This document shows, piece after piece, positions 3,205 through 48,978 of a stretch of 64,000 nucleotides of DNA. The notes under the pieces were generated by a model. It saw nothing but the letters and a program-made list of their open reading frames with translations. It searched no databases and was not told where the DNA came from. The DNA comes from Hymenobacter properus (GTDB taxonomy: Bacteria > Bacteroidota > Bacteroidia > Cytophagales > Hymenobacteraceae). Where the stretch lies: the NCBI RefSeq assembly GCF_015694735.1, contig NZ_JADQDP010000003.1, forward strand, positions 868,001-932,000, given 5' to 3'. The translations under genes and the position numbers were made by a program. Positions within the stretch are counted from its first letter, which is position 1. Each line of letters starts with the position of its first letter.

Positions 3205-3241
3205 AGCGGGTTGGAAAGGAAACGTTGCAGAACCGAACCGA

Positions 3242-4438
3242 CTACCAGAAGCTGGGGCGTGTGGCCGCGCCGCGCGTGCGGCAGTCCACGCAGTCGCGCG
3301 GCTTGGTTGTGTAGCCGCCCAGAAAACCGGCGATATAAATTTCCTCGATGGGCAGCATATTCTGCGGGCCGAAGGCAGTGAGCAACACTTCTTCCGGCTT
3401 AGGAGGCGGCACCATGCCTTTGGGTTTCAAAAACACCGTGTCGGGCGGCACGCAGTTTTCGTAGCCGGAAATGCGCGGCCAACCCGCGGGCAAATCGGTG
3501 CGGCTGATGAAAAGGCGCTTTTCCGAAACAGAGTGGGCACCCACAAAGCCCAGCACTACTTCGTCGGGGCTGGTGAGGCAGCGCACGTTGCCGGTAAGCT
3601 GGGCCGGCTGCGGGTCGAAGAGCGTGCCAATGCTCTCCGTGTTTTTTTTCAACAGTTCCCAATAGGCGTACTCGTCCTTGGTGAGGGCGTGCTGCTGCAC
3701 CAAGATGCTGTAGCGCGTGTAAAGCCGCTCCGAAGCCGGCAGCAGTTGCTTCACCGGAAAGTCCGACACCACGTCTTGGGTCAGGGCCGTGGTTTTGTCG
3801 ATGAGCACCGCATTGGAACGCATGTTGCCGTAGCACACCGTGGGGTAGGGCACCGCGATGGGGCGGATGGCCCGGGCGGCCGTCACGTACTCGACCACCG
3901 GGGCGTAGGGCGGCCTAATCTCCCAGGTTTCGTCGGTTTCCCAGCGGTAGTACTGGGTGGCGTTGGCGGCGTCGTGGGCGCTCACGTAAAAGTTCAGGCC
4001 GTTGCCGTTGATGCGCCAAGTCAGGTTATCCACGGCCGGCGTGATTTTGACGGGCACGAAGGCCGAGGCGTATTCCTTGCCCGCCAGTGTGATGATGCGC
4101 AGGCGGTACTGTCGGTTCAGGTTCAGTTGCTGCGAAGCCGAGGCATAGGTTCCCTTCGTGCTGGTTTCCGCCAGGAGCAGGCGCGCGCCGGTGTTGTCTT
4201 CTATGGTCACGGCGGCCCGCGTCTCGACGGGGGCGGCTGCCTTGCTGGCCACGGCGAAGGCGCGCGAGAGGCGAATGGTGGTCACGCCCTGCGCATTCAG
4301 AAAGCCGTCGACTACCAGGTAGCCCGGCGGCGTGCCGATGACGTCGGGCATGTACGCGTCGGTGCACCCGGCCAGCAACGCCAGCAGCGCGAAACAGCCC
4401 ATCAAGGCCCGGCCAACCGAAAACCCGAAGGTGTTCAT
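3242..4438 (-). CDS. DUF4249 family lipoprotein, first copy after the TonB receptor
   Basis: 398-aa DUF4249 protein with a lipoprotein signal ending LLALLAGC (Cys about residue 25). Its start lies one base after the stop of the TonB-dependent receptor gene, so receptor and lipoprotein are translated from one message. It is nearly colinear with the copy at 2011-3204, and its C-terminal tail is DCVDCRTRGA..RPSFW. In this family the receptor plus DUF4249 arrangement is common, and the lipoprotein is thought to act at the cell surface with the receptor. The ligand cannot be read from sequence. Confidence 0.93.
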   Translation of the reverse strand: MNTFGFSVGRALMGCFALLALLAGCTDAYMPDVIGTPPGYLVVDGFLNAQGVTTIRLSRAFAVASKAAAPVETRAAVTIEDNTGARLLLAETSTKGTYASASQQLNLNRQYRLRIITLAGKEYASAFVPVKITPAVDNLTWRINGNGLNFYVSAHDAANATQYYRWETDETWEIRPPYAPVVEYVTAARAIRPIAVPYPTVCYGNMRSNAVLIDKTTALTQDVVSDFPVKQLLPASERLYTRYSILVQQHALTKDEYAYWELLKKNTESIGTLFDPQPAQLTGNVRCLTSPDEVVLGFVGAHSVSEKRLFISRTDLPAGWPRISGYENCVPPDTVFLKPKGMVPPPKPEEVLLTAFGPQNMLPIEEIYIAGFLGGYTTKPRDCVDCRTRGAATRPSFW

Positions 4439-4439
4439 C

Positions 4440-7205: not shown

Positions 7206-7248
7206 GGAAAGGAATAGATAGCGCAGAAAAAAGCAGGGCGGCCGGCGC

Positions 7249-8001
7249 TTAGCGCGTCGTCAGTCCGGAATAGTAGCGGGCCAGCTGCACGAGGGAAGCC
7301 TCAAACTGCGCTTTCTTAAACGACAGCTTTTGCGCTTTCGCATAGTCCTGCATCTCCTTGCCGCGGTCGGCAAACACACGCAGCGCGGTCGATTTGCGGC
7401 TCGCTGGGTAGTAGATGCCGGCTTTTTTGATAAACAGCTCGTCCTGTGAAACAAACTCAACATCAACGCCTTGCTGCACCACCCGCTCTTGCATGCGCTT
7501 GGAGCGCCGGGCCAGCACCTGCACGGTGCTGTCGAGCAGCACTTCGTAGTACCCCGTCTGGATAACGCGGCTATTGGCGCTGTCAGCCACCAGCCGCACA
7601 AAGCGGTGATTGTTGAGCGAGAACGAACCCACGTTTTCGTTCACAAACCGCAGCGACAGCGGGCTGCGGGGCGGCGTCACCACCACCTGGTCGCGCACCA
7701 CGTCGTAGGCCAGCTGCAGGTTGGGGAAGTTGTGGCCGTTGTAGAACACGCTGCCCGGCTGCCGGGTGGGCTCGCCAAAAAATTGGTGCCCCGTTCGTTG
7801 GTGGTAGGGCCTGGCGTAGTCAATGTATTCGGGGCCGTTGTAAAGCTGCGACGACAACGCAAAACCCGTTGCATACTGCTGCTGTGCGGCCCCCACGGCC
7901 GCGGCCAGCGCCGCATCAGGGGCCGCCGCTTGGCCGGCGGCGAAGTGGCCAAACAAAGGGATGCACAGCAATGCCAGGCTGGCAGCGCGGACTAAATTCA
8001 T
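7249..8001 (-). CDS. Exported protein of unknown function, first gene of the receptor operon
   Basis: 250-aa protein with a clear signal peptide (ALLCIPLFGHFAAGQA, cleavage near residue 24). The mature part begins with an Ala-rich helix and then a mixed alpha/beta region (GSVFYNGHNFPNLQLAYDVVRDQVVV, split here only by reading) with Lys-rich helices near the C-terminus. No catalytic motif is recognised. Its position directly upstream of an STN-containing TonB receptor, same strand, suggests a periplasmic partner of the uptake system. The ATG at 8001 is the first start and gives the signal peptide. No TAnnTTTG promoter was found in the 150 bases upstream. Confidence 0.8.
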   Translation of the reverse strand: MNLVRAASLALLCIPLFGHFAAGQAAAPDAALAAAVGAAQQQYATGFALSSQLYNGPEYIDYARPYHQRTGHQFFGEPTRQPGSVFYNGHNFPNLQLAYDVVRDQVVVTPPRSPLSLRFVNENVGSFSLNNHRFVRLVADSANSRVIQTGYYEVLLDSTVQVLARRSKRMQERVVQQGVDVEFVSQDELFIKKAGIYYPASRKSTALRVFADRGKEMQDYAKAQKLSFKKAQFEASLVQLARYYSGLTTR

Positions 8002-8362
8002 GGAAAGGCGGAATGTGGCAGTAAGGAACCCCTAATCTAGGGCCTGAGCGCAATAATTCTGGTTTGGGAGCAGCGGTAAAAGCAAGACTGTGGCTTAGAA
8101 TGCAATAAACCGGCTTTTTGGAAGATAAAATTCTCGCTTAAAAGTCCTAAGGGCGTGCCATAGTGGGGCTATGCCGCCGGCAAGCCCCCGTCCCATCGGC
8201 CCAGCCGATGGATGACCGGTACCAGTCGGGATAGGTTGCCTCGTGGTCGATAATAACATGCGGCAGGATGGCCTGCGGGCTAGGTTTGCCGGCATTCCAA
8301 CCCGCTGCGCGGCCGGGCAACGCCCGGCGCCGGGGTTTTATTTTTATCCGGCTGTCTGCTTT
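8002..8362. other. Divergent intergenic region
   Basis: 361 bases between the receptor operon (minus) and the DUF4197 gene (plus); it must hold both promoters. A TATTTTTA run just upstream of 8363 is one base from the TAnnTTTG -7 consensus. No convincing gene, hairpin or riboswitch is seen. Confidence 0.4.
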
Positions 8363-9100
8363 ATGAAGAACTACTTTTTGCTGCTGGCCCTCGTGCTGGG
8401 CGCTTCCGGCCACGCTTCGGCCCAGATTTCCCTCCCCAAAATCGGCAACATCAAGCTGCCCCCAATGGGCAAAACCACCGGCGCCGCCCCCGGCAGTGTG
8501 AGCAACGCCGAAGCCGCCAATGGCCTCAAGGAAGCCCTCATCCAGGGCATCAGCAAGGGCGCCGACCAGGCCTCGCAAACCGACGGCTTCAACCTGAACT
8601 CGCTCATTCGCATTCCCTTCCCGCCCGATGCGCAGCGCGTGGCCACCAAGCTGCGCGCCCTGGGCCTGGGCAGCCAGGTCGATGCCTTCGAGCTGAGCCT
8701 GAACCGCGGGGCCGAAGACGCCGCCAAGAGCGCCAAGCCCATTTTCCTGAATGCCATCAAGAGCCTGACCTTCACGGACGTGTGGAACATTCTGAGTGGG
8801 CAGCAAGACGCTGCCACGCAGTACCTCAAGCGCACCACGACCGGCCAGCTCACCACGGCGTTTCAGCCCATCATCCAGCAAAGCCTCGATAAGGTGGGCG
8901 CCACCAAGTACTACACCCAGCTCAGCACCACCTACAACCGCATTCCGCTGGTGCAGCCCGTGCAAACCGACCTCAACCAGTACGCCACCGGCAAGGCCAT
9001 CGACGGCTTATTCACGCTCATCGCCCAAGAGGAAGCCAACATCCGCCAAAACCCCGTGGCCCGCACCACCGAGCTGCTGAAAAAGGTGTTTGGCGGTTGA
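8363..9100 (+). CDS. DUF4197 domain-containing exported protein
   Basis: 245-aa protein with a signal peptide (LLALVLGASGHASAQ). The mature protein carries the whole DUF4197 pattern: GLKEALIQGISKG, then LIRIPFPPDAQRVATKLRALGLG, KAKPIFLNAIKSLTF-like text (here SAKPIFLNAIKSLTF), and QQSLDKVGATKYY. The family is alpha-helical and periplasmic, with no known activity. The start is the ATG at 8363 because it opens the signal peptide; an in-frame extension to 8243 has no export signal. It precedes the exonuclease gene by 39 bases on the same strand; co-transcription is possible but the functions show no link. Confidence 0.93.
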   Translation: MKNYFLLLALVLGASGHASAQISLPKIGNIKLPPMGKTTGAAPGSVSNAEAANGLKEALIQGISKGADQASQTDGFNLNSLIRIPFPPDAQRVATKLRALGLGSQVDAFELSLNRGAEDAAKSAKPIFLNAIKSLTFTDVWNILSGQQDAATQYLKRTTTGQLTTAFQPIIQQSLDKVGATKYYTQLSTTYNRIPLVQPVQTDLNQYATGKAIDGLFTLIAQEEANIRQNPVARTTELLKKVFGG

Positions 9101-9139
9101 GCAAGCAGCGGCCGGCAGCCATTGCCCGTACAACCGGCC

Positions 9140-9745
9140 ATGCGCTACGTTTCCCTCGACCTCGAAACCTCCGGCTCGAACCCGCGCCGCCACCAGATTC
9201 TGGAGCTGGCGGCCGTCATTGAAGACTCGCGCCACCCGCTGCCGCTGGCCGAGCTGCCCGCCTTCCGGCGCGTGGTGCGCCACTCCGAGTACGTGGGCAC
9301 CGCCGGCGCCCTGGCCCTAAATGCCCGCCTGCTGCAGGAACTGGCCCAAAAAGAGCCCAACCCCGAGCTATGCACCCCCGAGGAACTGATGCCCCAGCTG
9401 CGCGCGTTTCTGCTGGCGCACGGCTTCCGGCCCGATGCCAAGGACTGCGTGTCGGTGACGATGGCGGGCAAAAACATCGGCGTCTTTGACCTGGGCTTTC
9501 TGAAAGAACTGCCGGGCTACGGCGCCCTCGTGCGCGCCGAACCCGCTATGCTCGACCCGGCCGTGTTCTACCTCAACTGGCACAAAGACTCGCGCCTGCC
9601 CAGCATGCGCATCTGCAAGGCCCGCGCCCGCTTCGACGACCAAGAAGTGGCCCACGAAGCCCTGGCCGACGCCCTGGACGTGGTGCGCCTGTTGCGGCCT
9701 TTTTACCAACTGCCGGTTTATCAGCAGGTGGTGGAAAAGGATTAG
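9140..9745 (+). CDS. DEDD-type 3'-5' exonuclease
   Basis: About 201 aa. The N-terminal Exo I motif YVSLDLETSG supplies the D-x-E metal ligands; the middle segment DLGFLKELPGYG fits Exo II; and the C-terminal HEALADALDVVRLL is the Exo III block with its H/D pair. The layout resembles oligoribonuclease or DnaQ-like enzymes that remove nucleotides from 3' ends of small RNAs or DNA. The length is a little above oligoribonuclease (about 180 aa). The ATG at 9140 is preferred over a TTG at 9122. The stop codon lies inside the left arm of a 20-bp hairpin. Confidence 0.85.
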   Translation: MRYVSLDLETSGSNPRRHQILELAAVIEDSRHPLPLAELPAFRRVVRHSEYVGTAGALALNARLLQELAQKEPNPELCTPEELMPQLRAFLLAHGFRPDAKDCVSVTMAGKNIGVFDLGFLKELPGYGALVRAEPAMLDPAVFYLNWHKDSRLPSMRICKARARFDDQEVAHEALADALDVVRLLRPFYQLPVYQQVVEKD

Positions 9746-9795
9746 AGCCAGTAACCAAGACAAGTGAGGGACTCCGTCTTGGTTACTGGCTCTAA
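9742..9795. terminator. 20-bp perfect hairpin between convergent genes
   Basis: Arms at 9742-9761 and 9776-9795 are exact reverse complements with a 14-base loop that can itself pair (GAG/CTC). It sits between the exonuclease (plus) and the LytTR regulator (minus) and includes the exonuclease stop codon. Best read as a bidirectional terminator; there is no long U-tract. Confidence 0.7.
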
Positions 9796-9814
9796 TATAT
9801 TGGCTCTGAAAAAT

Positions 9815-10537
9815 TTAAATCCGCTGCAGGCCCTTGTAGAAGCCATCCTGGTACGACTTGCCGATGGGCACGAAGTGGCCGCCGCGCAGGTTGGCGGTGT
9901 TGTCTTCGATGGATTCGATGTGCTGCGTGTTCAGCAAATAGCTGCGGTGCACCCGAATGAAGTTCGGGAACGGCGCCAGCCGGGTTTCGAGGGCCTTGAG
10001 CGTAGTATAGACGATGTATTTCTGCTTGGGCGTTACAATGTTGACGTAGTCGGAGAGAGCCTCCACGTATAGCACATCGTCGAAGTTGATGCGCACCATG
10101 CGGCTGTTCACCTTCACAAACAGGTCGGCGTTGGCCGGCGCTTCGGGGGCGGCGGGGGTGGCTGATGCGCTGGCGCTGTGGCTGGCGCGGGCTTGCACAC
10201 GCTGCACCGCCTGCGTGAAACGCGCAAACTCGAAGGGCTTCACCAGGTAGTCGGTCACGCGCAGTTCGAAGGCATCGACGGCAAAATCCTGCCGGGCCGT
10301 GGTGATGATGACCTCGGGCGGGTCCGTCAGCACGCGCAGCAATTCCAGGCCGCTGAGGTGCGGCATCTCAATGTCGAGAAACAGCACATCCACCTTGTTG
10401 CCCTCGCGGAAGTATGTGAGGCCGGCAATGCCGTCGCTCAAAGAGGCCACCAGCTTCAGGTCTGGCGTGAGTTCAATGTAGTGCTCAAGCGTCAGACGAT
10501 TGATTTCGTCGTCGTCAATGATGGCGCATGTTAACAT
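9815..10537 (-). CDS. LytTR-family response regulator
   Basis: About 240 aa. Receiver domain (1-120) with acidic pocket DDD at 8-10, phospho-acceptor D55 in LFLDIEMPH, and K100 in DYLVKPFEF; a short Ser/Ala/Pro linker; then a LytTR DNA-binding domain (about 135-235) with IRVHRSYLLN and the VPIGKSY end. These regulators bind direct repeats upstream of target genes after phosphorylation, normally by a LytS/AlgZ-type histidine kinase. No such kinase is encoded in this window, so it is an orphan here. The ATG at 10537 gives the canonical receiver start; longer in-frame extensions do not fit. Confidence 0.92.
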   Translation of the reverse strand: MLTCAIIDDDEINRLTLEHYIELTPDLKLVASLSDGIAGLTYFREGNKVDVLFLDIEMPHLSGLELLRVLTDPPEVIITTARQDFAVDAFELRVTDYLVKPFEFARFTQAVQRVQARASHSASASATPAAPEAPANADLFVKVNSRMVRINFDDVLYVEALSDYVNIVTPKQKYIVYTTLKALETRLAPFPNFIRVHRSYLLNTQHIESIEDNTANLRGGHFVPIGKSYQDGFYKGLQRI

Positions 10538-10658
10538 AGACAAGGAAAAGAAGAGCAAATGACGAAAGCACTGGTGCGTTCGCCGGTATAAAGTAACTAC
10601 TCGCAGAGGAAAAGCGCGCAACCAACCAGCCGCAGCAACCGCAATAAATGGCAAAGAA

Positions 10659-10666
10659 TAGCTTTG
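10659..10666 (+). promoter_or_regulatory. Bacteroidota -7 promoter motif TAGCTTTG
   Basis: Exact match to TAnnTTTG, 61 bases upstream of the ATG at 10728. It argues that the protein starts at 10728 and not at an earlier in-frame codon. Confidence 0.5.
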
Positions 10667-10727
10667 CTATTTGCAAATAACACAGAATGAGCCTGCTTTT
10701 TGGCTCTGTACTTCTGCTTTTAACTTC

Positions 10728-11147
10728 ATGCTGAAATTGCGCCCATTTGCCTGGCTGATGTTTTTGCTGGTTGGCAGCGCCTTAGAAGCGCACGCCAGCC
10801 CCCGGCCCAAACCCCTGACCACCGCCGAAACCGAGGCGCGCAACGAAGCTTTGGTGCCCAGCCTGTCGGCGCAGCTCCGCGAGGCCCGGCGCATCGCCCG
10901 GTTTCTGACGGATGCCCTCTCCCTCACCGAGGCCCAGCGCCTGGCCGTGGAGGCCACCACGGCCGCCGAGCGCCAGGTGCTGGCCTTGGTCGCCACCCCC
11001 GCCGATGCGGCCGAGGCCCGGCGTGCGTACCGCTCGGCCGTGCACGGCGTGCTCGACGCCCGCCAGCTCACCGCCTACGAGGACTTGTGCCAGCGCCTGG
11101 CTGGCACCGCCCAGGCCCTCGATGGCACCGGGCTGGCCATTCGCTAG
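10728..11147 (+). CDS. Small exported helical protein
   Basis: 139 aa. Signal peptide LMFLLVGSALEAHA, then an almost entirely helical mature protein. The segment SLTEAQRLAVEATTAAERQ (about residues 64-83) resembles the LTxxQ helices of CpxP/Spy-like periplasmic proteins, and a second one appears in LDARQLTAYEDL. It is weakly similar in style to the small Spy-like proteins common in Bacteroidota; no activity is claimed. Ends 12 bases before the convergent kynurenine 3-monooxygenase gene. Confidence 0.75.
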   Translation: MLKLRPFAWLMFLLVGSALEAHASPRPKPLTTAETEARNEALVPSLSAQLREARRIARFLTDALSLTEAQRLAVEATTAAERQVLALVATPADAAEARRAYRSAVHGVLDARQLTAYEDLCQRLAGTAQALDGTGLAIR

Positions 11148-37820: not shown

Positions 37821-37829
37821 TTCAACGAA

Positions 37830-38837
37830 GTGTACGAATCCCCCTTCCATGAGCGGCCGCTCGACAACCTGACTTTCCTCGTAACCGGCGGCGCGGGCTT
37901 CATCGGCTCCAACATCGTGGAGTATTTGCTGAAATACGGCGTCAAGAAAGTGCGGACGCTGGACAACTACTCCAACGGCTTCCGCAAAAACCTGGCGCTG
38001 TTTGCCGGTGATGACCGGCTTGAAATCCTGGACGGCGACATCCGGGACGCTGCCGTATGCGCCAACGCCTGCGAGGGCGTGGACGTGGTGCTACACGAGG
38101 CCGCCCTGGGCTCGGTGCCGCGCTCCATCAAAGACCCCGTATTGACCAACGACGTTAACGTAGGCGGCTTCGTGCAGATGCTGACGGCCGCAAAAAATGC
38201 GGGCGTGAAGCGTTTTGTGTACGCGGCCAGCAGTTCGACCTACGGCGACCACCCCGGCCTGCCCAAGGTGGAAGACCGCATCGGCAAGCCCCTCTCGCCC
38301 TATGCCGTGACCAAATACGCCAACGAGCTCTACGCCGACGTGTTTGCCCGCACCTACGGCATGGAAATCATTGGCCTGCGCTACTTCAACATCTTCGGCC
38401 CGCGCCAGGACCCGGGCGGAGCCTACGCGGCCGTGATTCCGCTGTTCATCGATGCCATTCTGCGCAACGAGGCACCCACGCTCAACGGCGACGGCGGCCA
38501 AACCCGCGACTTCACCTTCGTGGAGAATTGCGTGGAAGCTAACATCCGCGCTGCGCTGGTGGAGAACCCTGAGGCTTTGGGCCAGGTCTACAACATCGCC
38601 GTGGGCGACCGCACCTCACTGGTGCAGATGTACGACATCCTGCGCGAGGAAGCAGGCTCCGATTTGGCGCCGAAGTTTGGCCCTGACCGTGCCGGCGACA
38701 TTCGCGACTCACTGGCTGATATTTCCAAAGCGCGTAACCTGCTGGGCTACAACCCGCAGGTGCGCATCCGCGAAGGGCTGCGGAAGACGCTGGAGTGGTT
38801 CAAGGCCAACCAGAGCTTCATTCAGGAAAGAAATTAG
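37830..38837 (+). CDS. UDP-GlcNAc 4-epimerase (TviC/WbpP type)
   Basis: 335 aa extended SDR. NAD motif GGAGFIGS near residue 20 after an N-terminal extension (ESPFHERPLDNLTFLV) typical of WbpP/TviC; HEAALGSVPRSIKDP, the SSSTYG and PYAVTKYANE active-site motifs, FNIFGPRQDPGGAYAAVIPLFI and GGQTRDFTFVENC are family signatures. It would interconvert UDP-GlcNAc and UDP-GalNAc, feeding the TviB-like dehydrogenase upstream. GTG start at 37830, ten bases after the heptamer palindrome. Confidence 0.92.
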   Translation: MYESPFHERPLDNLTFLVTGGAGFIGSNIVEYLLKYGVKKVRTLDNYSNGFRKNLALFAGDDRLEILDGDIRDAAVCANACEGVDVVLHEAALGSVPRSIKDPVLTNDVNVGGFVQMLTAAKNAGVKRFVYAASSSTYGDHPGLPKVEDRIGKPLSPYAVTKYANELYADVFARTYGMEIIGLRYFNIFGPRQDPGGAYAAVIPLFIDAILRNEAPTLNGDGGQTRDFTFVENCVEANIRAALVENPEALGQVYNIAVGDRTSLVQMYDILREEAGSDLAPKFGPDRAGDIRDSLADISKARNLLGYNPQVRIREGLRKTLEWFKANQSFIQERN

Positions 38838-38841
38838 TCCG

Positions 38842-38943
38842 AACATCATGCAGAGCGCCGCGAAGCATCTCGCGTGCCGCAGTAAATCAAACCGTTGAAT
38901 CACCATTGCACGCGAGATGCTTCGCGGCGCTCTGCATGACGTT
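38842..38943. repeat. Palindromic repeat, GTCATGCAGAGC family (epimerase-rfbA gap)
   Basis: Arms of about 36 bases (CATGCAGAGCGCCGCGAAGC... / ...GCTTCGCGGCGCTCTGCATG) fill the gap before rfbA. Confidence 0.9.
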
Positions 38944-38958
38944 TTAGTACTTCAACCC

Positions 38959-39837
38959 ATGAAAGGCATTATCCTCGCCGGCGGCTCCGGCACCCGCTTG
39001 CACCCGCTCACGCTGGCCGTTTCGAAGCAGCTCATGCCTGTTTACGACAAGCCGATGATTTACTACCCGCTGTCGATTCTGTTGTCGGCCGGCATCCGGG
39101 AAGTGCTCATCATCACCACGCCGCACGACCAGGCCCAGTTCAAGAAGCTGCTGGGTGACGGCAAAAACCTAGGCTGCGATTTCCAGTACGTAGTGCAGGA
39201 GGTACCCAACGGTCTTGCCCAGGCCTTCGTGCTGGGTGCCGATTTCATCGGCAAGGACAAGGTGGCGCTGGTGCTTGGCGACAACATTTTCTACGGCGCC
39301 GGCCTCTCGGAGCTGCTGAAGGCCAACAATGACCCCCAGGGCGGCGTGGTGTTTGCTTACCACGTGCACGACCCCGAGCGCTACGGCGTGGTGGAGTTCG
39401 ACGAGAACAAGAAGGCCCTTAGCATTGAAGAAAAGCCGGCCCAGCCTAAGAGCAACTACGCCGTGCCTGGCCTGTATTTCTACGACAACGACGTGGTAGA
39501 AATCGCCAAAAACCTGGAGATGAGCCCGCGCGGCGAGTACGAAATCACCGACGTGAACAAGGAGTACCTGCGCCGCGGCACGCTGAAAGTGGGCATCCTG
39601 GGCCGCGGCACGGCTTGGCTCGACACCGGCACCTTCGAGAGCCTGATGCAGGCTGGCGAATTTGTGAAGGTGATTGAGCAGCGCCAGGGCCTGAAAGTGG
39701 GCTCCATTGAAGAAGCTGCCTACCGTCAGGGCTTCATCAATGCCGACCAGCTCCGCGCCATTGCCGCCCCGCTGCGCAAGAGCGGCTACGGCGACTACCT
39801 CATGCACCTGCCTGAGCAGCTGATGCTGGAGGAGTAG
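38959..39837 (+). CDS. rfbA: Glucose-1-phosphate thymidylyltransferase
   Basis: 292 aa. Nucleotidyltransferase motif [11 protein letters not shown] (about 8-18), [23 protein letters not shown] (metal-binding Asp), [31 protein letters not shown] and [11 protein letters not shown], all diagnostic of RmlA/RfbA. It makes dTDP-glucose from dTTP and glucose-1-phosphate. Last gene of the operon, followed by a terminator at 39926. Confidence 0.97.
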
Positions 39838-40061: not shown

Positions 40062-41720
40062 TTACTCGTCCAGATACTGGTGCACGAACTTGATGGCCAT
40101 GCTGCCTTCGCCCACGGCGGAGGCCACGCGGGCCATGGCGCCGGCTCGGCTGTCGCCGGCCGAGAAGATACCGGGCACGCAGGTTTCGAGCAGGTAAGGC
40201 TCGCGGGTTTTTTTCCACGATTGGGCGTAGCGCGGGTCGGCCACCAGGTCGCGGCCGGTGAGGACGTAGCCTTTGCCGTCGCATAGGACCTGGTCGCACA
40301 CCCATTCGGTGCTGGGCTTGGCCCCGATGAAGACGAACAGGGCCCGGGCCGGGCGCTTTTCTACCGTGCCATTAATGTCGACCATCACGGCTTCGAGGTG
40401 GTCCTGCCCGCACACTTCCTTGATTTGCGAGAAGGGCATGAGGACGATGTTAGGGGTGTTGCGGATTTGCTCGATGAGGTAGGCCGACATGCTGGCGGCC
40501 AGGTTGGCCCCGCGGATGACGATGTAGACGTTGCGCGCGTAGGTGGCCAAATACATGGCCGCTTGGCCGGCCGAGTTGCCGCCGCCCACGATGTACACGT
40601 CCTGCTCGTCGCAGCTGCGGGCCTCGGTGCGGGCCGCGCCGTAGTACACGCCTGCGCCGCTGAGGCGGTCCATGCCCGGCACGTCGAGGGTGCGGTAGCT
40701 CACGCCGGTGGTGAGCACCACGGCCTTGGTTTTCACTTCGCGGCCGTCGCTAAGGGTGAGCACTTTGTAGCCGTCCTGAATGCACAAGTCGTTTACTTCC
40801 TGCGGGGCCAGGAACTCGGCCCCGAGGCGCACGGCCTGCGTCCAGGCGCGGTGGGCCAGCTCGGCCCCGCTCAGGCCGGTGGGGAAACCCAGGTAGTTTT
40901 CAATGCGTGAGCTGGTGCCGGCCTGTCCACCGGGCGTCTGGCGCTCGATGATGAGCGTGCGCAGGCCCTCGCTGGCGCCGTACACGGCCGCGGCCAGGCC
41001 GCTGGGGCCGGCGCCCACCACCACCACGTCGTACATGTCCTGCAGAGGCTGGTTGGCAATACCGAGGCTATTGGCCAAGTCGGCCTTGCTGGGGTTGGCC
41101 ACGGCCTTGCCGTCGGCGCAGATGATGACGGGCAGGTCGGTGGGCTCGAAGCCGCGGGCTTTCACCAGGGCCTGGGCTTCGGGGTTGGTTTCGTAGTCGA
41201 GCCACTGGTAGCCCACCATGTAGCCGCTCAGAAAGTCCTTGAGCTCGTGCGACAGCGGCGACCACTGAAACCCAATCAGCCGCACGCCGTCGAAGCGCGG
41301 CTTGTTGGTGACTTGCCAGGCGGCTAGTAGGTCGTGCAGGGTGGGGTAGAGCAGCTGCTCGGGTGGGTCCCAGGGCTTCATCAGGTAATGGTCGAGCCGA
41401 GCCGAATTGATGGCGCGCACGGCCGCTTCGGTGTCAGCGTAGGCGGTAAGCAGCACGCGCTTGGCGTCGGGGAAGAACTCGCGCGAGGCTGTGAGCAGCT
41501 CCACGCCTTCGAGCTGGGGCATGCGCTGGTCGGCCAGAATTAGAGCCAGCGGCTCTTCCTTGGCGTGTAGCTCCTTAATGGTTTCGAGGGCTTCGGGGCC
41601 CGAGTTGACGCGCAGAATGCGGTACTCCTGGCTGAATTCCTGGCGTAGGTCGCGGGCAATGGCGGCCAGCACCTGCGGGTCGTCGTCGACGGCGAGAATA
41701 ATCGGTTTAGCAATGGCCAT
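40062..41720 (-). CDS. Response regulator fused to thioredoxin-reductase-like flavoprotein
   Basis: 552 aa with three parts. Receiver domain (1-125): VDDD at 11-14, phospho-acceptor D64 (LILADQRMP), K115 (LMKPWDP). A thioredoxin/glutaredoxin-like middle (about 140-225) without CxxC. A thioredoxin-reductase-like module (about 228-552): FAD site [10 protein letters not shown] (236-245), [23 protein letters not shown](P) site [10 protein letters not shown] (379-388) and [11 protein letters not shown]. The redox CxxC of TrxR is missing: only C370 precedes the NAD motif. This matches the family named fused response regulator/thioredoxin-disulfide reductase. Its partner kinase lies immediately upstream on the same strand. 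Confidence 0.93.
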
Positions 41721-41840: not shown

Positions 41841-43250
41841 TTATGCTTGGCTACCCGCTACCGGCAGCCAGGCGCAAAACTCGGTACGGCCGGGCTTGGA
41901 ATCAACTTCCAGCCGGCCATCGTGCTGGTGAATGATGCGCTGCGCAATATCCAGCCCCAGGCCCGAGCCGTCGCCGGCCTGCTTGGTGGTGTAGAAGGGC
42001 TCGAAGATGTGCGGTAGCACCTCGGGCGGGATGCCGGTGCCGTTGTCAATCAGGAACACGCGCACGAAGTCGCCCTCGCGGCGGGTGCGCAGTGTGATTT
42101 CGCCGCCTTGGGCGGGCAGGGCGTCAATGGCATTGTCGAGCAGGTTGGTCCACACCTGATTAAGGCTGCTGACCTGACCGCGGATTTGAGGCAGGTCGGG
42201 AGCGTAGTCGCGGGTGAGGTGCACGTTTTTCTGGCGCAGCTGGAAGCCCAGCATGTTGAGGGTGCTTTCGAGGCCGGTGGTCACGTCGAGCAGCTCAAAG
42301 CCGCCGGCGCGGTCCATGTGCGAGTAGGTTTTCACATCGGCTACCAGTTTGCTGATGCGGCCGCCGGCCTCCTGCACGTCGTGCACCAGTTGCATGGTGG
42401 TGAGCTGGCCTTCGAGCCAGGCAAAGGCGGCCGGGCGGGCGGCAGGCGGCAGCAGGGCGGCCACCGGCGCCAAGGCTTCCACGGTCACGCCGGCTTCGAG
42501 CAGGGCCGGCGCCAGGTGGTAGCCATCGGGTGAGCCCTGGTCGGTGAGCCAGTCGGCCAGTTCGTCCTCGCGGTTGGCACGCTCCAGGGCCGAGAGGGGC
42601 GCGGGGGGCGCCTCGGCGGGCACGGCCAGGCCGGTGAGGGCGCGCATGGCCTCGGGGGAGGGGCAGTAACCCACCAGCTCCACAAACAGGGCGGGCTTGG
42701 CCGCCGCGCGCCGGGCCAGGGCCTGGCCGGCGCGGGCAATGGCGGCGGCGGGGTTGTTGAGCTCGTGGGCCAGGCCGGCCGAAAGCTTGCCTAGGGCTCG
42801 CAGCTTGTCGTCGCGCTCCTGCACGCGCACCTGGTCGCGGCTGCGGTCATTCATCACGGCCACCAGGCGCTGGGTGAGCTCGGGGCTGGCCTGCTCCAGG
42901 GCCGGAAACTGGTCGCGGTGCAGGGTGTAGAGCAGGGTGTCGCCGATGGCCACGCCCTGGCCAGCTAGCACCCGCAGCCGCGAGTAGGGTAGCACGCCCG
43001 ACACCTGCCCGGCCTCGATGCGAAACACGGGCTCGCGCTGGGCGCCCTTCACCTGGTAGAACTGGATGCCGCCCCGGATGACGGCCGTCATCAGCTCGGC
43101 CGGGGCGCCGGGCTCGAAGAGGACTTCGCCGGGGGCGAGGGCGCGGCCTTCGCCGTGGGTTAGCAGCCAAGCAATGGTTTCGGCGGGCAGGCCGGCGAAG
43201 GCGGTGACGGCGGCCAGGTCGGCGGGGGTGAGGGGAGGAGCTATAGCCAT
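41841..43250 (-). CDS. Histidine kinase with N-terminal cyclic-nucleotide-binding-like domain
   Basis: 469 aa from the ATG at 43250. Residues 1-125 form a Crp-like cNMP-binding domain (ALAPGEVLFEPGAPAELM, YSRLRVLAGQGVAIGDTLLY), though the phosphate-cassette Arg-Ser is not obvious. A short linker leads to the phospho-acceptor H162 in LSAGLAHELNNPAAAI, and then a long dimerisation/insert region (180-310). The HATPase domain has WTNLLDNAIDAL (N box), DNGTGIPP (G1) and GDGSGLGL (G2). No membrane segment, so cytoplasmic. It probably phosphorylates the receiver of the adjacent flavoprotein. An in-frame ATG-less extension to 43277 is not favoured. Confidence 0.92.
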   Translation of the reverse strand: MAIAPPLTPADLAAVTAFAGLPAETIAWLLTHGEGRALAPGEVLFEPGAPAELMTAVIRGGIQFYQVKGAQREPVFRIEAGQVSGVLPYSRLRVLAGQGVAIGDTLLYTLHRDQFPALEQASPELTQRLVAVMNDRSRDQVRVQERDDKLRALGKLSAGLAHELNNPAAAIARAGQALARRAAAKPALFVELVGYCPSPEAMRALTGLAVPAEAPPAPLSALERANREDELADWLTDQGSPDGYHLAPALLEAGVTVEALAPVAALLPPAARPAAFAWLEGQLTTMQLVHDVQEAGGRISKLVADVKTYSHMDRAGGFELLDVTTGLESTLNMLGFQLRQKNVHLTRDYAPDLPQIRGQVSSLNQVWTNLLDNAIDALPAQGGEITLRTRREGDFVRVFLIDNGTGIPPEVLPHIFEPFYTTKQAGDGSGLGLDIAQRIIHQHDGRLEVDSKPGRTEFCAWLPVAGSQA

Positions 43251-43440
43251 AGCCCTATAACCCGATGCGGGGCGCAATGTTGAGGCCGCCGGAGTGCCGG
43301 GCGAAGCGCCGGAAACGGGCGCGGCGGCACCCAGGTATTTCTACGTGTTTATATAGTTGGGATGCGGGAAGCTGTTCTCTTTCTCATACATTTAACAGGA
43401 CAAGCAGTTCCGCTTCCACTCACCAAACCCGGTCACCCCC

Positions 43441-44538
43441 ATGAAACACTTACTTACTTACTTACTTACGAGTGCCACAATCATGACCATGAGCGGCCAT
43501 GAAGCGCAAGCTCAAACAAACACTAATTACAATGGGGCAGCTGTCAACGGCGGTACGCACTTCATGAATGCCGACGCGAACAGCAACTCCAGCGCCTATC
43601 TGGAGCTAAGCTCATCGCCCAGCAAAGCCTCCATTGGTTACATAGCCGGCATGAACGCACCAGCAACTGGCGTAGCGCACTATTTTATGGTGCGTGACGC
43701 GCTGGGGTGGACCTCCCTACTGAGGATAATGAGAAATGGCCGCACAGGAATAGGCTATAACGTGGCGGAATTCCCTCGCTCCATGCTCAACGTGGGCACG
43801 GGTAATTACGCCGTTTCGATGGACGAGGTGGGCAGCGAGCGCCGCAACAATCAGGGCGCACTTATCCCCGGAGTTGCTAAAGGCGGCGCCTGCGTGGGCT
43901 TCAACGCCTCCCGCCAGCCGGACGCGGACATTGCCTGCGACGCCAACGCCGCCGGCAGCCGCAACGGCGGGGCGCTTATCTGGGCCGAGGACGAGGGCAC
44001 GCTCAACTTCACGGCGTTTCCCACCAACAAAGGCACGCAAGTCACGGGCGCCGTGGGCACGCAGTGGTATCACCCGGATGATGTGGCCAGCTATCGGGTC
44101 ATGAAAATCATGCCGGCCGCTACCGGGCAAACGGCGCAGCCCACCGGCGGGCGGGTGCAAATCGGCCGTTATGAACCCACCTATCACCCCGACTACCGCC
44201 TGGCTGTGGACGGCAAGCTGGTGGCCCAGTCCATCTTCGTGACGCAGGTTAACAACTGGGCCGACTTTGTGTTTGCCCCCACCTACGCCCTGCAACCCCT
44301 GCCCGAACTGGAAGCCTACCTAAAGCAAAACCGCCACCTGCCCGCCATCCCCTCGGCGGCCGAGGTGGAGAAGAACGGCATCGACGTGGGCGAGATGAAT
44401 GCCCGGCTGCTGCAAAGTCTGGAAGAGCTGACGCTACACGTCATCGAACTGAACAAGCAGAACGCGCGGCTGCAAGCCGAAGTAGCCGCCCTGGCGGCAA
44501 AGATGAATCAGAATGCTGCGCCAGCAGTGGGCAAGTAA
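43441..44538 (+). CDS. Exported tail-fibre-like protein with repeat-encoded signal peptide
   Basis: 365 aa. Signal peptide (LLTYLLTSATIMTMSGHEAQAQ). The body (about 25-270) is Gly/Asn/Ala-rich beta with no known domain. The C-terminal section YLKQNRHLPAIPSAAEVEKNG, GEMNARLLQSLEELTLHVIELN and a coiled coil is the ending seen in many Bacteroidota proteins labelled tail fibre or endosialidase-chaperone-like. Codons 3-9 of the signal peptide are written by five and a half copies of ACTT (43448-43469), so slippage would shift the frame. It precedes two further exported proteins on the same strand. Confidence 0.82.
   Translation: MKHLLTYLLTSATIMTMSGHEAQAQTNTNYNGAAVNGGTHFMNADANSNSSAYLELSSSPSKASIGYIAGMNAPATGVAHYFMVRDALGWTSLLRIMRNGRTGIGYNVAEFPRSMLNVGTGNYAVSMDEVGSERRNNQGALIPGVAKGGACVGFNASRQPDADIACDANAAGSRNGGALIWAEDEGTLNFTAFPTNKGTQVTGAVGTQWYHPDDVASYRVMKIMPAATGQTAQPTGGRVQIGRYEPTYHPDYRLAVDGKLVAQSIFVTQVNNWADFVFAPTYALQPLPELEAYLKQNRHLPAIPSAAEVEKNGIDVGEMNARLLQSLEELTLHVIELNKQNARLQAEVAALAAKMNQNAAPAVGK
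43448..43469 (+). repeat. Tetranucleotide repeat (ACTT x5.5) inside a signal-peptide coding sequence
   Basis: Uninterrupted ACTT units from codon 3 to codon 10 of the exported protein gene. Unit length is not a multiple of three, so gain or loss of one unit would abolish the protein. Confidence 0.9.
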
Positions 44539-44562
44539 GCAGGATTTATCATTCTTTCTGAT

Positions 44563-46329
44563 ATGAAAACGCTTCTCTTTTTGCTCGCGTTGGCCGCCAC
44601 GCTTACCCGCCCGGCCCGGGCCCAGAACCCCCAATTAGTCATCGACCAAGCCGCCACGTTGCCTTCGCTGGCCACGCCGGGCAGTGGCATCATCTACGAT
44701 TTAAGCGAATACACCGACGCGCAGGGTAACACCTATCAAGCCGGCACATTCAGCGGTACGGTTCACTTCGGTTCTTTCACCTTTGCCACCGGGACCGGCG
44801 AGATGGAGGTAGTGGTGGCCAAGCGCAACGCCACGGGCACGTACCAGTGGGCCCTTGCCGGGGGCGGGGCCGGTGACCAGCGCTGCAAGGCTTTGACCGT
44901 GGACGCGGCGGGCAACGTGTATGTGACCGGCTCCTTCCCCACGGCTACGGCCACGTTCGGGGCCACGGTGCTCACCAACCGGGCAGCGGCGGGCACGACC
45001 ACCAGCGACGTGTTCGCGGCCAAGGTGACGGCGGCTGGGGCCTGGGACTGGGCCGTGAGCGCGGGCGGGGGCACGCGCATCAATGGCGACGACTACGGCA
45101 CGGCTGTGGGCGTCGACCTGTTTGGCAACGCCTACGTGGCCGGCACGTTCACCAGTTCGGTGGCTTTCTTTGGTAGTATTCAAGTGCCCAGCCCCGACCG
45201 AAACGGGCGGGACATTGCTTTTGTGGCCAAGCTCAGTTCAGGAGGCATCTGGCAATGGGTGCGCAATAACGAGGATTTCGGCAGCAGCGCGACGGCGGTA
45301 GCGACCGACGAGGCCGGCAATACTTACCTGTCGGGGCATTTTCGCGGGCGTATCCACTACGGCCCTTTCTTGGTCACGGCCTCGAACGGCGCCCAAACCG
45401 CCTACATTGCCAAGGTCGACGCGACCGGGGCCTGGCAGTGGGCCACGGCCATCCAGGCCGGCGTGCTCACCAACGGGCATTGCCAGCAATTCGGGGTAGT
45501 GCTGGACAGGTACGGCAATGCGTATTCCACGGGCGTTTTCACGTCCGATACCCTTAAGTTTGACCGCACGACCCTGACCAACACCGGGCCGCGCCAGCCG
45601 CCGGCCTACACCAGCCGCACGTATAATGCGTTCGTGGCCAAGCTGAACGTGGCGACGGGCCGGTGGCGGTGGGCCGCGCAAAGCCGGGGCGACGGCGATG
45701 AAGGCTTGGGCGGCCCTCTCTTCGACGCGCAGGGGCAGCTATACGTGGGCGGAGGTTTCAGCCCGCCGCCGGGGGCCAGCGGGCCGGGCCCGGGCAGCCA
45801 GTTCGGCAGCACTACGCTGTTCAGCGCCGGCGGCGACGACATTGTGGTGGCGCAGCTCGACACGGCCGGCCGGTGGCTGTGGGCCCGGCGGGCCGGCGGG
45901 CCGGACAATGAAGGCGGCGCGCCACGCCGCCTCGATGCTCAAGGCCGGGTGTACGTGGCCGGGTCGTTCTATGGGAGTACGCTGCCGCTGGGCGCACTCA
46001 CTCTAACCGCGTTACCCGGGTCTTGGGGTAACGCTTCCAGTACGTATTCTCTTTTTGAGGCCCGGCTGGGCGTCAATGGCCCATTGGCCGTGCGAAACGG
46101 CCGCGACGATACATTCGACGTGTACCCCAACCCGGCTCATACGGCCGTGACCGTGGCCGGATTGCCACCGGGCCAGGTGGTGCAGGTGCTCGACATCGTG
46201 GGCCGTAAGGTGCTGGCGGGTACGGTGCCGCCGCAGGGCACGTTGCAACTGGCATTGCCGGCCGGGCTACCCCCCGGCGTGTACTTGGTACGGGCCGGAG
46301 CTCAAACCCGGCGGCTGGTGGTGGAATAG
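44563..46329 (+). CDS. SBBP-repeat surface protein with T9SS type A sorting domain
   Basis: 588 aa. Signal peptide to about residue 21. The body is a seven-ish-bladed repeat: GNVYVTGSF, GNAYVAGTF, GNTYLSGHF, GNAYSTGVF, GQLYVGGGF, GRVYVAGSF, each following an aspartate-rich strand, which is the SBBP/beta-propeller pattern. The C-terminus (about 515-588) is a Por secretion-tail-like domain: FDVYPNPAHTAVTV, VVQVLDIVGRKVL, GVYLVRAG and a basic end RRLVVE. It should be secreted by the type IX system and attached to the cell surface or released. No enzyme motif is seen. Confidence 0.9.
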   Translation: MKTLLFLLALAATLTRPARAQNPQLVIDQAATLPSLATPGSGIIYDLSEYTDAQGNTYQAGTFSGTVHFGSFTFATGTGEMEVVVAKRNATGTYQWALAGGGAGDQRCKALTVDAAGNVYVTGSFPTATATFGATVLTNRAAAGTTTSDVFAAKVTAAGAWDWAVSAGGGTRINGDDYGTAVGVDLFGNAYVAGTFTSSVAFFGSIQVPSPDRNGRDIAFVAKLSSGGIWQWVRNNEDFGSSATAVATDEAGNTYLSGHFRGRIHYGPFLVTASNGAQTAYIAKVDATGAWQWATAIQAGVLTNGHCQQFGVVLDRYGNAYSTGVFTSDTLKFDRTTLTNTGPRQPPAYTSRTYNAFVAKLNVATGRWRWAAQSRGDGDEGLGGPLFDAQGQLYVGGGFSPPPGASGPGPGSQFGSTTLFSAGGDDIVVAQLDTAGRWLWARRAGGPDNEGGAPRRLDAQGRVYVAGSFYGSTLPLGALTLTALPGSWGNASSTYSLFEARLGVNGPLAVRNGRDDTFDVYPNPAHTAVTVAGLPPGQVVQVLDIVGRKVLAGTVPPQGTLQLALPAGLPPGVYLVRAGAQTRRLVVE

Positions 46330-46377
46330 CGGAGAAAAACCGCATAAACTAAACAAACACTCTAGGGTCATTTCACC

Positions 46378-48564
46378 ATGTACAAACTTTTACTAATCAT
46401 CGGCTGCTGGGCCCTGGCCCAGCCCGGCTGGGGGCAAAGCTGTACGTTCTCCAACACGATTGGCCGCACCCAGCCCGTGCGCGACGCGAACTGCATCGAG
46501 CTGGGCGACAACTTCTCCAGCACGAGCGAGATTGACATCACTATCACGACAAACCGCGGTTTAGCCGGCTGGTGGCGGAAGGCCTCGTGGGGGTTTGAGG
46601 GCCAGGACACGACTCAGCTTGAACGTGTTTTTATCGGTATTCATACCAGCGTGCTGCCCAACGGGATAGTGCTTTCCTGGCAAGGGCATAACGACAATCA
46701 GTTTTCTACTCCAGGTGCTTCTCATCCTGGAACCGATATCTACCGTTGGGAGCCCAATCTTAACCACCTCTCTTCAACAATATTTCATGTCCGTTGGACT
46801 AACGCTTTTTGCACCGGCCACAGCTTCCTCGCCGATGGAAAGCTGTTGATGACTGGTGGGCATGACGAAACAATTGCCGAGGTGAAGGATGATAGAAATA
46901 CTCCACAGAATGAATATGTGCCCGAATACATCAAAGGGCTGAACCATGCCAATACCTACGATTACAGAATTAACCCTACTGCCATTAGGCCAGGAACCGT
47001 AGAGGACCCAGTAAGCTGGAACAGGGAGCATGAAATGACCCGTAACCGCTGGTACCCCACCAACACTACGCTTTATAATGGCGATGTGCTGACCACGGCC
47101 GGCGAAACCGAACCTACCCAAATACTAAAAAACGAAGAACGATTTCCAGAGCTCTGGCACAATGGCAACTGGACCGAGCTGCGGGGTGTGTTGCGGAGCA
47201 TACCATACACAGCAGACTTCCGACCGTTCCCAACCTATCCCTGGACGTTTGCCGCGCCCAATGGCAAGGTGTTCTATGCGGGCCCAGACCCCTACATTGG
47301 TTATATCGACCCCGCAGGCAGTAGCCCGCCGCTGCCCGGCAGCGGCAGTACGACGCCCCGGGCAGGCGCTTGGACGGCAGCCGATGCGCAAACACGCAAT
47401 TATGGTCTCCGGGGCCAGGGCACGGCGGCCATGTTCTGGCCCGGCCGCATTCTGCTAGCGGGCGGTTCTGATGGCCAGACGGTGACCAATACCGCCGAAG
47501 TCATCGACCTGACCAGCGGGGCCAACGGCACGATAACCAATTCGAGCTTCCTCCAGCCCGTCATCACGCCGGCCGCGCCCATGCGCAACGCCCGGCACCA
47601 CGTCAACTCCACCATTCTGCCCGACGGCTCGGTGCTCATCACCGGCGGCTCACGCGTAACAGGCAGCAGCGACCGGGCACAGGCCGTGCTCGATGCCGAA
47701 ATCTGGACGCCCACGCCCGGCCCCAACGGCCCTACCGGCCCGGGCACCTGGACCACGGTGGCACCCATGAAGGAAGCACGCATGTACCACTCCACCGCCG
47801 TGCTGCTGCCCGACGGGCGCGTGCTTTCGGCCGGGGGCGAGGAAGTTATTAATTACGTGCCACGTTTCGTCCCTAACCAGGACAACCACTGCACGGCCGA
47901 AATCTACAGCCCGCCCTACCTGTTCGACGCCGCCGGCAACTTGCGGGCGCGGCCCACCATCACGGGAGCGCCGGCGCACGTGGGCTACGGGCAGCCCTTC
48001 ACGGTGGTGGCCCGGGCGGGCAGCGGCACGGTGGCCCGCGTCACGCTGGTGCGCCTCTCCTCGGTCACGCACTCCTTCAACATGAACCAGCGCTTTCTGG
48101 AACTGAACAAAAGCGGCCTGACCACGGCGCAGGGGGCCACATCGGTGGCCCTCACGGCCCCGGCCGACGGCACCGTGTGCCCGCCGGGCCACTACTGGCT
48201 GTTCGTACTCAACAGCCAGGGCGTGCCCTCGGAGGGGCAGGTGGTGCAGATTGGGCCCAGCGCCTGCGCCGGCACCCCCGACCTGGCCACGGCCTACGCC
48301 GTGGACGACGACTGCAACGCCACGGCCACGGCGTCGGTGTCGGGACCGAACCTGGGCACCGACTACAAGTGGACCGTCGACGGGGTGTACGATTCGAGTT
48401 TTGACGGCCAGTATTCCGTGAGCGTGGCGCTGAACCGCTGCCGGCCCCAGGCCACGCTGGGCGTGCGCGTGACGCCGAGCTGCGGCGGCGACCCGGTGGA
48501 AAACTTCGTGAGCGTGAGCCGCACCTTCTTGCCTAGCAAGTGCCCCGCCTGCGGCAATTTGTAG
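46378..48564 (+). CDS. Galactose oxidase/glyoxal oxidase-like copper radical oxidase
   Basis: 728 aa. Signal peptide to about residue 20; Kelch-like propeller (about 85-510) with DGKLLMTGG, NGDVLTTAGE, GRILLAGGSD, DGSVLITGGS and DGRVLSAGGE blades; then a DUF1929-type beta-domain (about 525-628). All residues of the copper-radical site are in place by motif: C145 (AFCTGHS) and Y226 (RWYPTNT) for the thioether crosslink, Y470 (MYHST), H565 (VTHSFN) and H605 (PPGHYW). A Cys-rich C-terminal extension (about 630-728, ending CPACGNL) follows. It likely oxidises an alcohol or aldehyde with O2, releasing H2O2. Substrate unknown. Confidence 0.9.
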   Translation: MYKLLLIIGCWALAQPGWGQSCTFSNTIGRTQPVRDANCIELGDNFSSTSEIDITITTNRGLAGWWRKASWGFEGQDTTQLERVFIGIHTSVLPNGIVLSWQGHNDNQFSTPGASHPGTDIYRWEPNLNHLSSTIFHVRWTNAFCTGHSFLADGKLLMTGGHDETIAEVKDDRNTPQNEYVPEYIKGLNHANTYDYRINPTAIRPGTVEDPVSWNREHEMTRNRWYPTNTTLYNGDVLTTAGETEPTQILKNEERFPELWHNGNWTELRGVLRSIPYTADFRPFPTYPWTFAAPNGKVFYAGPDPYIGYIDPAGSSPPLPGSGSTTPRAGAWTAADAQTRNYGLRGQGTAAMFWPGRILLAGGSDGQTVTNTAEVIDLTSGANGTITNSSFLQPVITPAAPMRNARHHVNSTILPDGSVLITGGSRVTGSSDRAQAVLDAEIWTPTPGPNGPTGPGTWTTVAPMKEARMYHSTAVLLPDGRVLSAGGEEVINYVPRFVPNQDNHCTAEIYSPPYLFDAAGNLRARPTITGAPAHVGYGQPFTVVARAGSGTVARVTLVRLSSVTHSFNMNQRFLELNKSGLTTAQGATSVALTAPADGTVCPPGHYWLFVLNSQGVPSEGQVVQIGPSACAGTPDLATAYAVDDDCNATATASVSGPNLGTDYKWTVDGVYDSSFDGQYSVSVALNRCRPQATLGVRVTPSCGGDPVENFVSVSRTFLPSKCPACGNL

Positions 48565-48662
48565 CCGGGCGAATCGAGAGCCGCTAAGCAGCGCAACTCC
48601 AAACGCGTGGCTACCGCCCAAAACCAGGCCCGAGCGTGGTTCCCTGCCCTTGCCAAACCCCG

Positions 48663-48696
48663 AAAAGCCCATCGGACGCCGGTCCGGTGGGCTTTT
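48663..48696 (+). terminator. Hairpin terminator after the copper radical oxidase gene
   Basis: AAAAGCCCATCGGAC arm pairs with GTCCGGTGGGCTTTT across a four-base loop (one G-T pair), ending in a T-run. Confidence 0.8.
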
Positions 48697-48746
48697 GGTT
48701 ATCCGGAGCCGGGTCGTGGCGGGTAGTGGGGCTGCGGGGAAAGCCC

Positions 48747-48879
48747 GCTGGCGCGCGTCTCCGACGCGAGCCGACCGGCACCGAGCCTGCGGCTCGGGCT
48801 TTGAACGACTTTGCTGCCACTACCCTATGGCGAGCCGCAGGCTCGACCCCAGCCGGCACGCGTCGGACACGCGCGCCAG
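48747..48879. repeat. Nested GC-rich palindrome (fourth repeat family)
   Basis: Outer arms 48747-48773 and 48853-48879 match at 24 of 27 bases; an inner pair (GAGCCTGCGGCTCG and CGAGCCGCAGGCTC) nests inside, so the element can fold into a cruciform-like double hairpin. It lies in the 415-base gap before radA. Confidence 0.8.
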
Positions 48880-48978
48880 CAGCGCCCCCGCCTTACCTTG
48901 CCGCCCCCGTTTCCGAGGCAACTTTTTTGCCCCCGCTGGCCTTATAAATCACACCCCCATCTCCCTATAAAAACCAGC

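Follow-up and report, generated by a model that had tools for sequence, protein, structure and literature searches.

The putative oxidase gene and its neighbours

The window, by which we mean the whole 64,000-nucleotide stretch of Hymenobacter properus DNA analysed here (from a genome of 5.54 Mb in 9 contigs), contains a cassette of three genes transcribed from one strand in the order A, B and C, with gaps of 24 and 48 nt, the last of which encodes a putative copper radical oxidase (Table 1). Gene A had no match in Pfam or among the PHROGs, and its NCBIfam matches were all under the cut-off. In NCBIfam, where the cut-off is 23, the T9SS type A tail of the gene B product scored 28.5 bits; in Pfam it remained under the cut-off. 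The terminator-like hairpin beyond the oxidase gene was equalled by none of 200 shuffled sequences, and its run of four T sits in the 3' arm of the stem. A scan of positions 43250-48960 found no promoter (1.2 expected) and eight terminators (5.8 expected), an uninformative outcome; the oxidase is presumably co-expressed with genes A and B. Outside the cassette, positions 40062-41720 of the minus strand encode a response-regulator receiver domain fused to a part resembling pyridine-nucleotide-disulphide oxidoreductases, adjoined by a histidine-kinase-like gene (41841-43277) whose product gave a sub-threshold match to a cNMP-binding domain.

The first-pass annotation of this DNA had proposed a Kelch propeller combined with a DUF1929-type domain, and this architecture was recovered: Pfam searches of the 728-aa open reading frame identified Kelch motifs and a GO-like E-set domain (PF09118, E = 9e-29), the latter formerly named DUF1929. 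The Glyoxal_oxid_N family also matched (E = 1.8e-10), its 41 bits lying over the cut-off of 37.5; no stretch passed by itself, and the best one covered only part of the profile.

Table 1. Features of the cassette and of the predicted oxidase, in window positions
Feature	Position	Strand	Basis
Gene A, unknown family, 365 aa, signal-like N terminus	43441..44538	+	
(ACTT)5.5 tandem repeat in the signal-peptide codons of gene A	43448..43469	+	
Gene B, SBBP beta-propeller and T9SS type A tail, 588 aa	44563..46329	+	Pfam, NCBIfam
Gene C, predicted copper radical oxidase, 728 aa	46378..48564	+	ORF, domain matches, predicted fold
Oxidase layout: signal-like N terminus, Kelch-type propeller, GO-like E-set, Ig-like C-terminal domain	46378..48564	+	
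Signal-peptide-like segment, about residues 1-20	46378..46437	+	read from sequence
C145, putative thioether partner (C450 of FgrAldOx)	46810..46812	+	alignments
W225-Y226, second-shell Trp directly before the putative cross-linked Tyr (W509-Y510 of FgrAldOx)	47050..47055	+	alignments
Y470-H471, putative axial Tyr and first His ligand (Y738-H739 of FgrAldOx)	47785..47790	+	alignments
GO-like E-set domain, residues 525-625	47950..48252	+	Pfam PF09118
H565, putative second His ligand (H826 of FgrAldOx), within VTHSFNMNQ	48070..48072	+	alignments
C-terminal Ig-like domain, residues 628-728, conserved cysteines	48259..48561	+	
Terminator-like hairpin 3' of the oxidase gene	48660..48698	+	-29.5 kcal/mol, z -5.8

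Predicted fold, copper site and substrate class

A single-sequence phmmer search against solved structures retrieved 22 distinct sequences, all of them galactose oxidases or their kin, with a best E-value of 2e-38 to the entry 9g43. When a profile built from a 14-row alignment (A1) was used instead, the E-values reached 3e-104 for 9g8h and 9g43, and 4e-89 for the galactose oxidase 1gof. At the level of sequence comparison, the homology of the window protein to AA5 enzymes is far beyond chance. An AlphaFold2 model built from 14 rows, which is of moderate confidence (mean pLDDT 75, pTM 0.77), places the Kelch propeller and the E-set domain in the AA5 fold; Foldseek put AA5 structures at the top of its list (TM-scores 0.52-0.58 for the full model of 728 residues), and VIA-align listed 25 AA5 entries at Z 35.7-44.0, the next fold following at Z 21.8. 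The superposition on galactose oxidase that had been suggested as a check gave 463 aligned residues at 2.2 Å (1gof, Z 42.4).

In the alignments, C145, Y226, Y470, H471 and H565 fall in register with the Cys-Tyr pair, the second (axial) Tyr and the two His of crystallised AA5 enzymes. The corresponding residues of the fungal enzyme FgrAldOx are Y738, H739, H826 and the Y510 linked to C450, in the same order as in the window protein (PMC13094651). The complete five-residue set was found in 40 of 42 aligned rows, and its residues are conserved down to about 30% identity; the two exceptions are L013, a 3' fragment, and L056, which has His in place of Tyr470. A first residue table held 44 rows, of which two actinobacterial ones (L073 and L074), where the full set was not seen, were removed as short and lacking matching columns before the tree and the final table were made, so that the count including them is 40 of 44. 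Locus L042, which a pattern had cut short, was re-trimmed in this row set, from which eight duplicate loci (L047-L053 and L055), the 5' fragment of L013, and L036 stand apart; the matches from the phylum of G598, a metagenome-assembled genome (MAG) titled Mycobacterium, entered it only where they had a locus.

The first-pass annotation had claimed every active-site residue, naming C145, Y226, Y470, H565 and H605. The first four hold their positions, and H605 does not, its column (within PPGHYWLF) being His in 11 of the 42 rows, Tyr in 14 (among them 6ryw), Trp in 10, Phe in two, Arg, Asp, Pro and Ala in one each (Ala in 9g43), and a gap in the remaining one. The partner of H565 that had been overlooked is H471, and once it replaces H605 the first shell is complete, which leaves the assignment as a copper radical oxidase supported by sequence and predicted fold. 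The gene is real and, as judged by sequence, predicted fold and active site, its predicted product is an AA5-type copper radical oxidase.

The residues surrounding this site point to a narrower assignment. The residue stacking on the cofactor is W290 in galactose oxidase; in FgrAldOx it is W509, which directly precedes the cross-linked Y510, and W288 of the Streptomyces protein GlxA adopts the same flipped orientation as W509 (PMC13094651). In the window protein, W225 precedes Y226, and T244 aligns at the position of W290, in agreement with the glyoxal/aldehyde-oxidase type, which combines a Trp before the cross-linked Tyr with a non-aromatic residue at the W290 position, and at variance with the aromatic residue found there in galactose oxidases of the AA5_2 type. 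Trp occupies position 225 in 36 of the 42 rows, together with a non-aromatic residue at 244 in 34 of them and with Phe in two (L018 and L020), whereas Gly at 225, found in five rows (9g43 and 6ryw among them), always goes with an aromatic residue at 244; one row lacks the region. From this pattern an aldehyde-oxidase-type site is predicted, an arrangement that would make small aldehydes likelier substrates than galactose. Judging from the aligned residues, the most likely substrate class is small aldehydes such as methylglyoxal, glyceraldehyde and glycolaldehyde, and this prediction is sharper than that of the first-pass annotation. D-glyceraldehyde and methylglyoxal are the preferred substrates of FgrAldOx and CgrAldOx, and glyoxal is a poor one (PMC13094651); glycolaldehyde is described in a 2016 paper as the best known substrate of GlxA (PMC4736821). 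The row L020 belongs to a Chitinophagia-titled MAG in which one open frame (3073-7017) joins an alpha-amylase-like part, under the cut-offs of the models, to the copper radical oxidase domain.

The fungal AA5_1 aldehyde oxidases, represented by FgrAldOx (9n3u), share with the window protein the five first-shell residues, the Trp-Tyr pair and the non-aromatic W290 position, yet the identity is low (24% over 459 residues, Z 35.7), and the WSC domain reported for FgrAldOx (PMC13094651) was not found in the window protein. By structure, the top-scoring entry (Z 44.0; 460 residues aligned, 32% identical) is the bacterial AA5 enzyme 9g43, the galactose oxidase of Pseudoarthrobacter siccitolerans, and the best matches in both sequence and structure are named galactose oxidase, as would be expected of an AA5_2-type enzyme oxidising galactose or another alcohol. 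These matches also reflect the predominance of that type among the solved AA5 structures. Unlike the window protein, 9g43 has Gly before the Tyr and Trp at 290; it groups with 6ryw and three rows from the genome G451 in a clade (100/99 support) that excludes the window protein, which lacks the Gly-Tyr and aromatic-290 arrangement of those five rows. We regard an AA5_2-type activity as quite improbable.

Streptomyces GlxA (4unm, Z 39.6) is bacterial and has the same first shell and, by the description in PMC13094651, the same type of second-shell Trp; that source does not place GlxA in AA5_1. The shared Trp type and a match to the NCBIfam GlxA equivalog model NF052501 (E = 4e-48) would fit a GlxA-like role in modifying cell-surface glycans together with a glycan synthase. 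The match, however, scored 164.2 bits against a curated cut-off of 800, and no cslA partner or other cellulose-synthase-like gene was found among the twelve window proteins scanned, the oxidase included. The window does contain sugar-nucleotide genes, at 37821-39834, beyond the limits of the cassette; one belongs to the flank common to locus L013. We consider a GlxA-like role unlikely.

We conclude that the gene probably encodes an exported mononuclear AA5-type copper radical oxidase, with small aldehydes as its most likely substrates, a function predicted from sequence and model. Copper would be bound by Y226 (putatively cross-linked to C145), Y470, H471 and H565, with W225 stacking on the cofactor as in GlxA and the fungal aldehyde ('glyoxal') oxidases. 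The Cys-Tyr radical and the copper would together transfer two electrons to O2 from a substrate that is either a primary alcohol or a hydrated aldehyde, presumably with release of H2O2.

Probable export, the C-terminal domain and copper-related neighbours

The N terminus of the protein looks like a Sec signal, which suggests export, and the enzyme would then reside in the periplasm or on the cell surface. A Cys-containing C-terminal extension had been described earlier, and it is present as the domain of residues 628-728. Modelled alone, this domain folds into six strands (mean pLDDT 90); its model had no match in the PDB better than E 0.01, and so it is designated only as Ig-like. The same type of domain ends the proteins of L013, L014 and L015, and similar domains precede T9SS type A tails in four proteins from three other genomes of the genus, while no further copy was detected in its own genome at E 0.01. 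Neither a T9SS type A nor a CHU_C sorting domain was found in the oxidase with Pfam and NCBIfam, which leaves its surface location unproven. The indications of a surface oxidase are only indirect, namely the signal-like N terminus, the T9SS-tailed product of the adjoining gene and the orthologue L016, which carries a T9SS type A match. The proximity to a T9SS cargo protein pointed out in the first-pass annotation is correct, since gene B adjoins with its type A tail, but it says little because the same genome encodes at least 150 such tails.

Maturation of GlxA in Streptomyces lividans requires Sco and the peroxidase DtpA, and is restored by added copper (PMC4736821). Of the relatives of the window oxidase, one has a Sco gene beside it and another a haem-peroxidase gene. 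In L043, from the Hymenobacter genome G139 (7098-10814), a SCO1/SenC gene and then an SBBP T9SS-cargo gene come after the oxidase gene, with gaps of 24 and 9 nt; in L024, from a planctomycete MAG (5129-8441), a gene for an animal-type haem peroxidase precedes the oxidase gene and overlaps its first listed start. Each neighbour is a single case outside the clade of the window protein, and together they are a hint that the GlxA-Sco-peroxidase logic is not confined to Streptomyces. A phmmer search with the L043 Sco protein over open reading frames of at least 90 aa in the loci and the window retrieved only L043 and two duplicates of its locus, and among ten open reading frames near the oxidase in seven other loci there was one haem peroxidase and no Sco. 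Neither gene adjoins the window oxidase; two Sco matches over the cut-off lie elsewhere in its genome, and these may serve cytochrome oxidase.

Distribution and divergence of the cassette

The closest named relatives of the oxidase are from Hymenobacter. Of 120 genomes of the genus, 7 had E-set matches, and a sample of 395 genomes across the phylum had PF09118 in 5, both counts including the genome of the window itself; in the phylum of G598, E-set matches occurred in 29 of 296 genomes. Twelve related loci comprised five Hymenobacter records, two planctomycete records, three Lautropia loci, and MAGs titled Mycobacterium and Chitinophagia. In the 42-row tree, which contains no row known as GlxA (some actinobacterial rows are of GlxA length), the window protein falls in a clade of seven Hymenobacter rows (100/99); L043, from the same genus, lies outside it and groups with two planctomycete and two MAG rows (96/90). 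Two further loci, L037 and L038, belong to G451, a genome of the same class with three galactose-oxidase-type copies bearing Gly-Tyr and Trp at 290, which lie in open frames of 892-1574 aa, with a polysaccharide-export gene between two of them.

The earlier expectation that such an oxidase would be notable in this group holds as regards its rarity in the phylum; as regards bacteria at large, copper radical oxidases are already known, and the window protein represents an uncharacterised branch of a known family. Known bacterial cases include GlxA, the Pseudoarthrobacter enzyme and the galactose-oxidase-like FbfB of Stigmatella aurantiaca, needed for fruiting-body formation and likened here by description only (PMC3543389). 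The text of that 2013 survey lists Ascomycota, Proteobacteria and Actinobacteria, along with Deinococcus-Thermus (1), Planctomycetes (1) and Cyanobacteria (2), and does not mention Bacteroidetes (PMC3543389). A search of literature titles gave no report of a copper radical oxidase from Bacteroidota or Hymenobacter among the matches listed. Few bacteria have had their copper radical oxidases studied, and this separate Hymenobacter branch provides a testable substrate prediction from two positions, W225 and T244.

A single in-frame stop interrupts two of the nine Hymenobacter copies examined, TAA in L013 (10733-10735) and TAG in L036 (minus strand), through either decay or draft error; at some loci, then, the gene may be undergoing decay or may not be required. 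Such stops, like the adjoining T9SS-tailed propeller protein, would suit a non-catalytic Kelch/E-set protein with a binding or structural role, its copper site no longer working. We consider this very improbable given that the five first-shell residues persist across nearly all rows, and a Sco gene and a peroxidase gene each adjoin a relative; an active aldehyde-type oxidase remains the preferred reading.

The A-B-C order recurred in four of the seven other Hymenobacter loci compared, namely L013, L014, L015 (with two copies of B) and L042. L016 has genes A and C, L043 has the B-like gene on the opposite side of C, after the Sco gene, and L017 begins at a contig end, which makes its upstream gene order uninformative; in G582, two B-like matches lie on the contig of the oxidase. 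Relatives of gene A (E 1e-15) were found in 11 of 120 genomes, including six of the seven with the oxidase, while B-like proteins (E 1e-20) are so common (75 of 120) that gene B alone is weak evidence. The flanking genes match those of the window only in L013, so the A-B-C block occupies other sites in the remaining loci.

Between the window and L013, synonymous divergence, calculated by one simple method on stop-to-stop frames, was 0.29-0.64 for seven flanking genes, against 1.32 for gene A and 1.74 for gene B; in gene C it was saturated over about the first third and 0.60 for the remainder. This pattern implies that a block reaching into gene C differs in history from its flanks and would, by these sequence comparisons, have been either replaced or acquired separately. 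G+C is also lower in the 5' part of gene C (0.53 against 0.67), a property found likewise in L013, L014 and L015 and therefore, by itself, common to the branch.

The (ACTT)5.5 repeat in gene A is the sole tract of the window with at least four copies of a 4-5-base unit or at least three of a 6-8-base unit. The tract at the corresponding place is (ACTT)3.5 in L013 and, in L042, 5.5 copies of another unit, TTGC. The ATG before the tract is in frame with the rest of gene A in the window and out of frame in L013 and L042, as judged from that ATG, other start codons being possible. No 4-, 5- or 7-base tract of at least three copies was found in L014, L015, L016 or the oxidase stretch of G582, nor in 13 stretches with gene A relatives away from an oxidase. 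A 4.5-copy ACTT pattern occurred at four places in 3 of the 120 genomes and the reversed control in 4 of 120; the control being as common, the case rests on position and frame, and rarity proves nothing. The tract suggests slipped-strand phase variation of gene A, although the out-of-frame tracts may be draft-assembly errors, and a literature search on Hymenobacter and phase variation returned no paper. Together with the block-wise divergence, the repeat suggests a cassette under changing selection. More speculatively, and in our view doubtfully, the cassette could be a phase-variable surface system in which slippage of the repeat in gene A would switch the cassette and a peroxide-making oxidase would be delivered with the T9SS propeller, against competitors, predators or hosts or in cross-linking of surface glycans, the block being exchanged between Hymenobacter strains. 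A tetranucleotide tract is also present in L043, where its five copies end 4 nt before the ATG of the oxidase gene.
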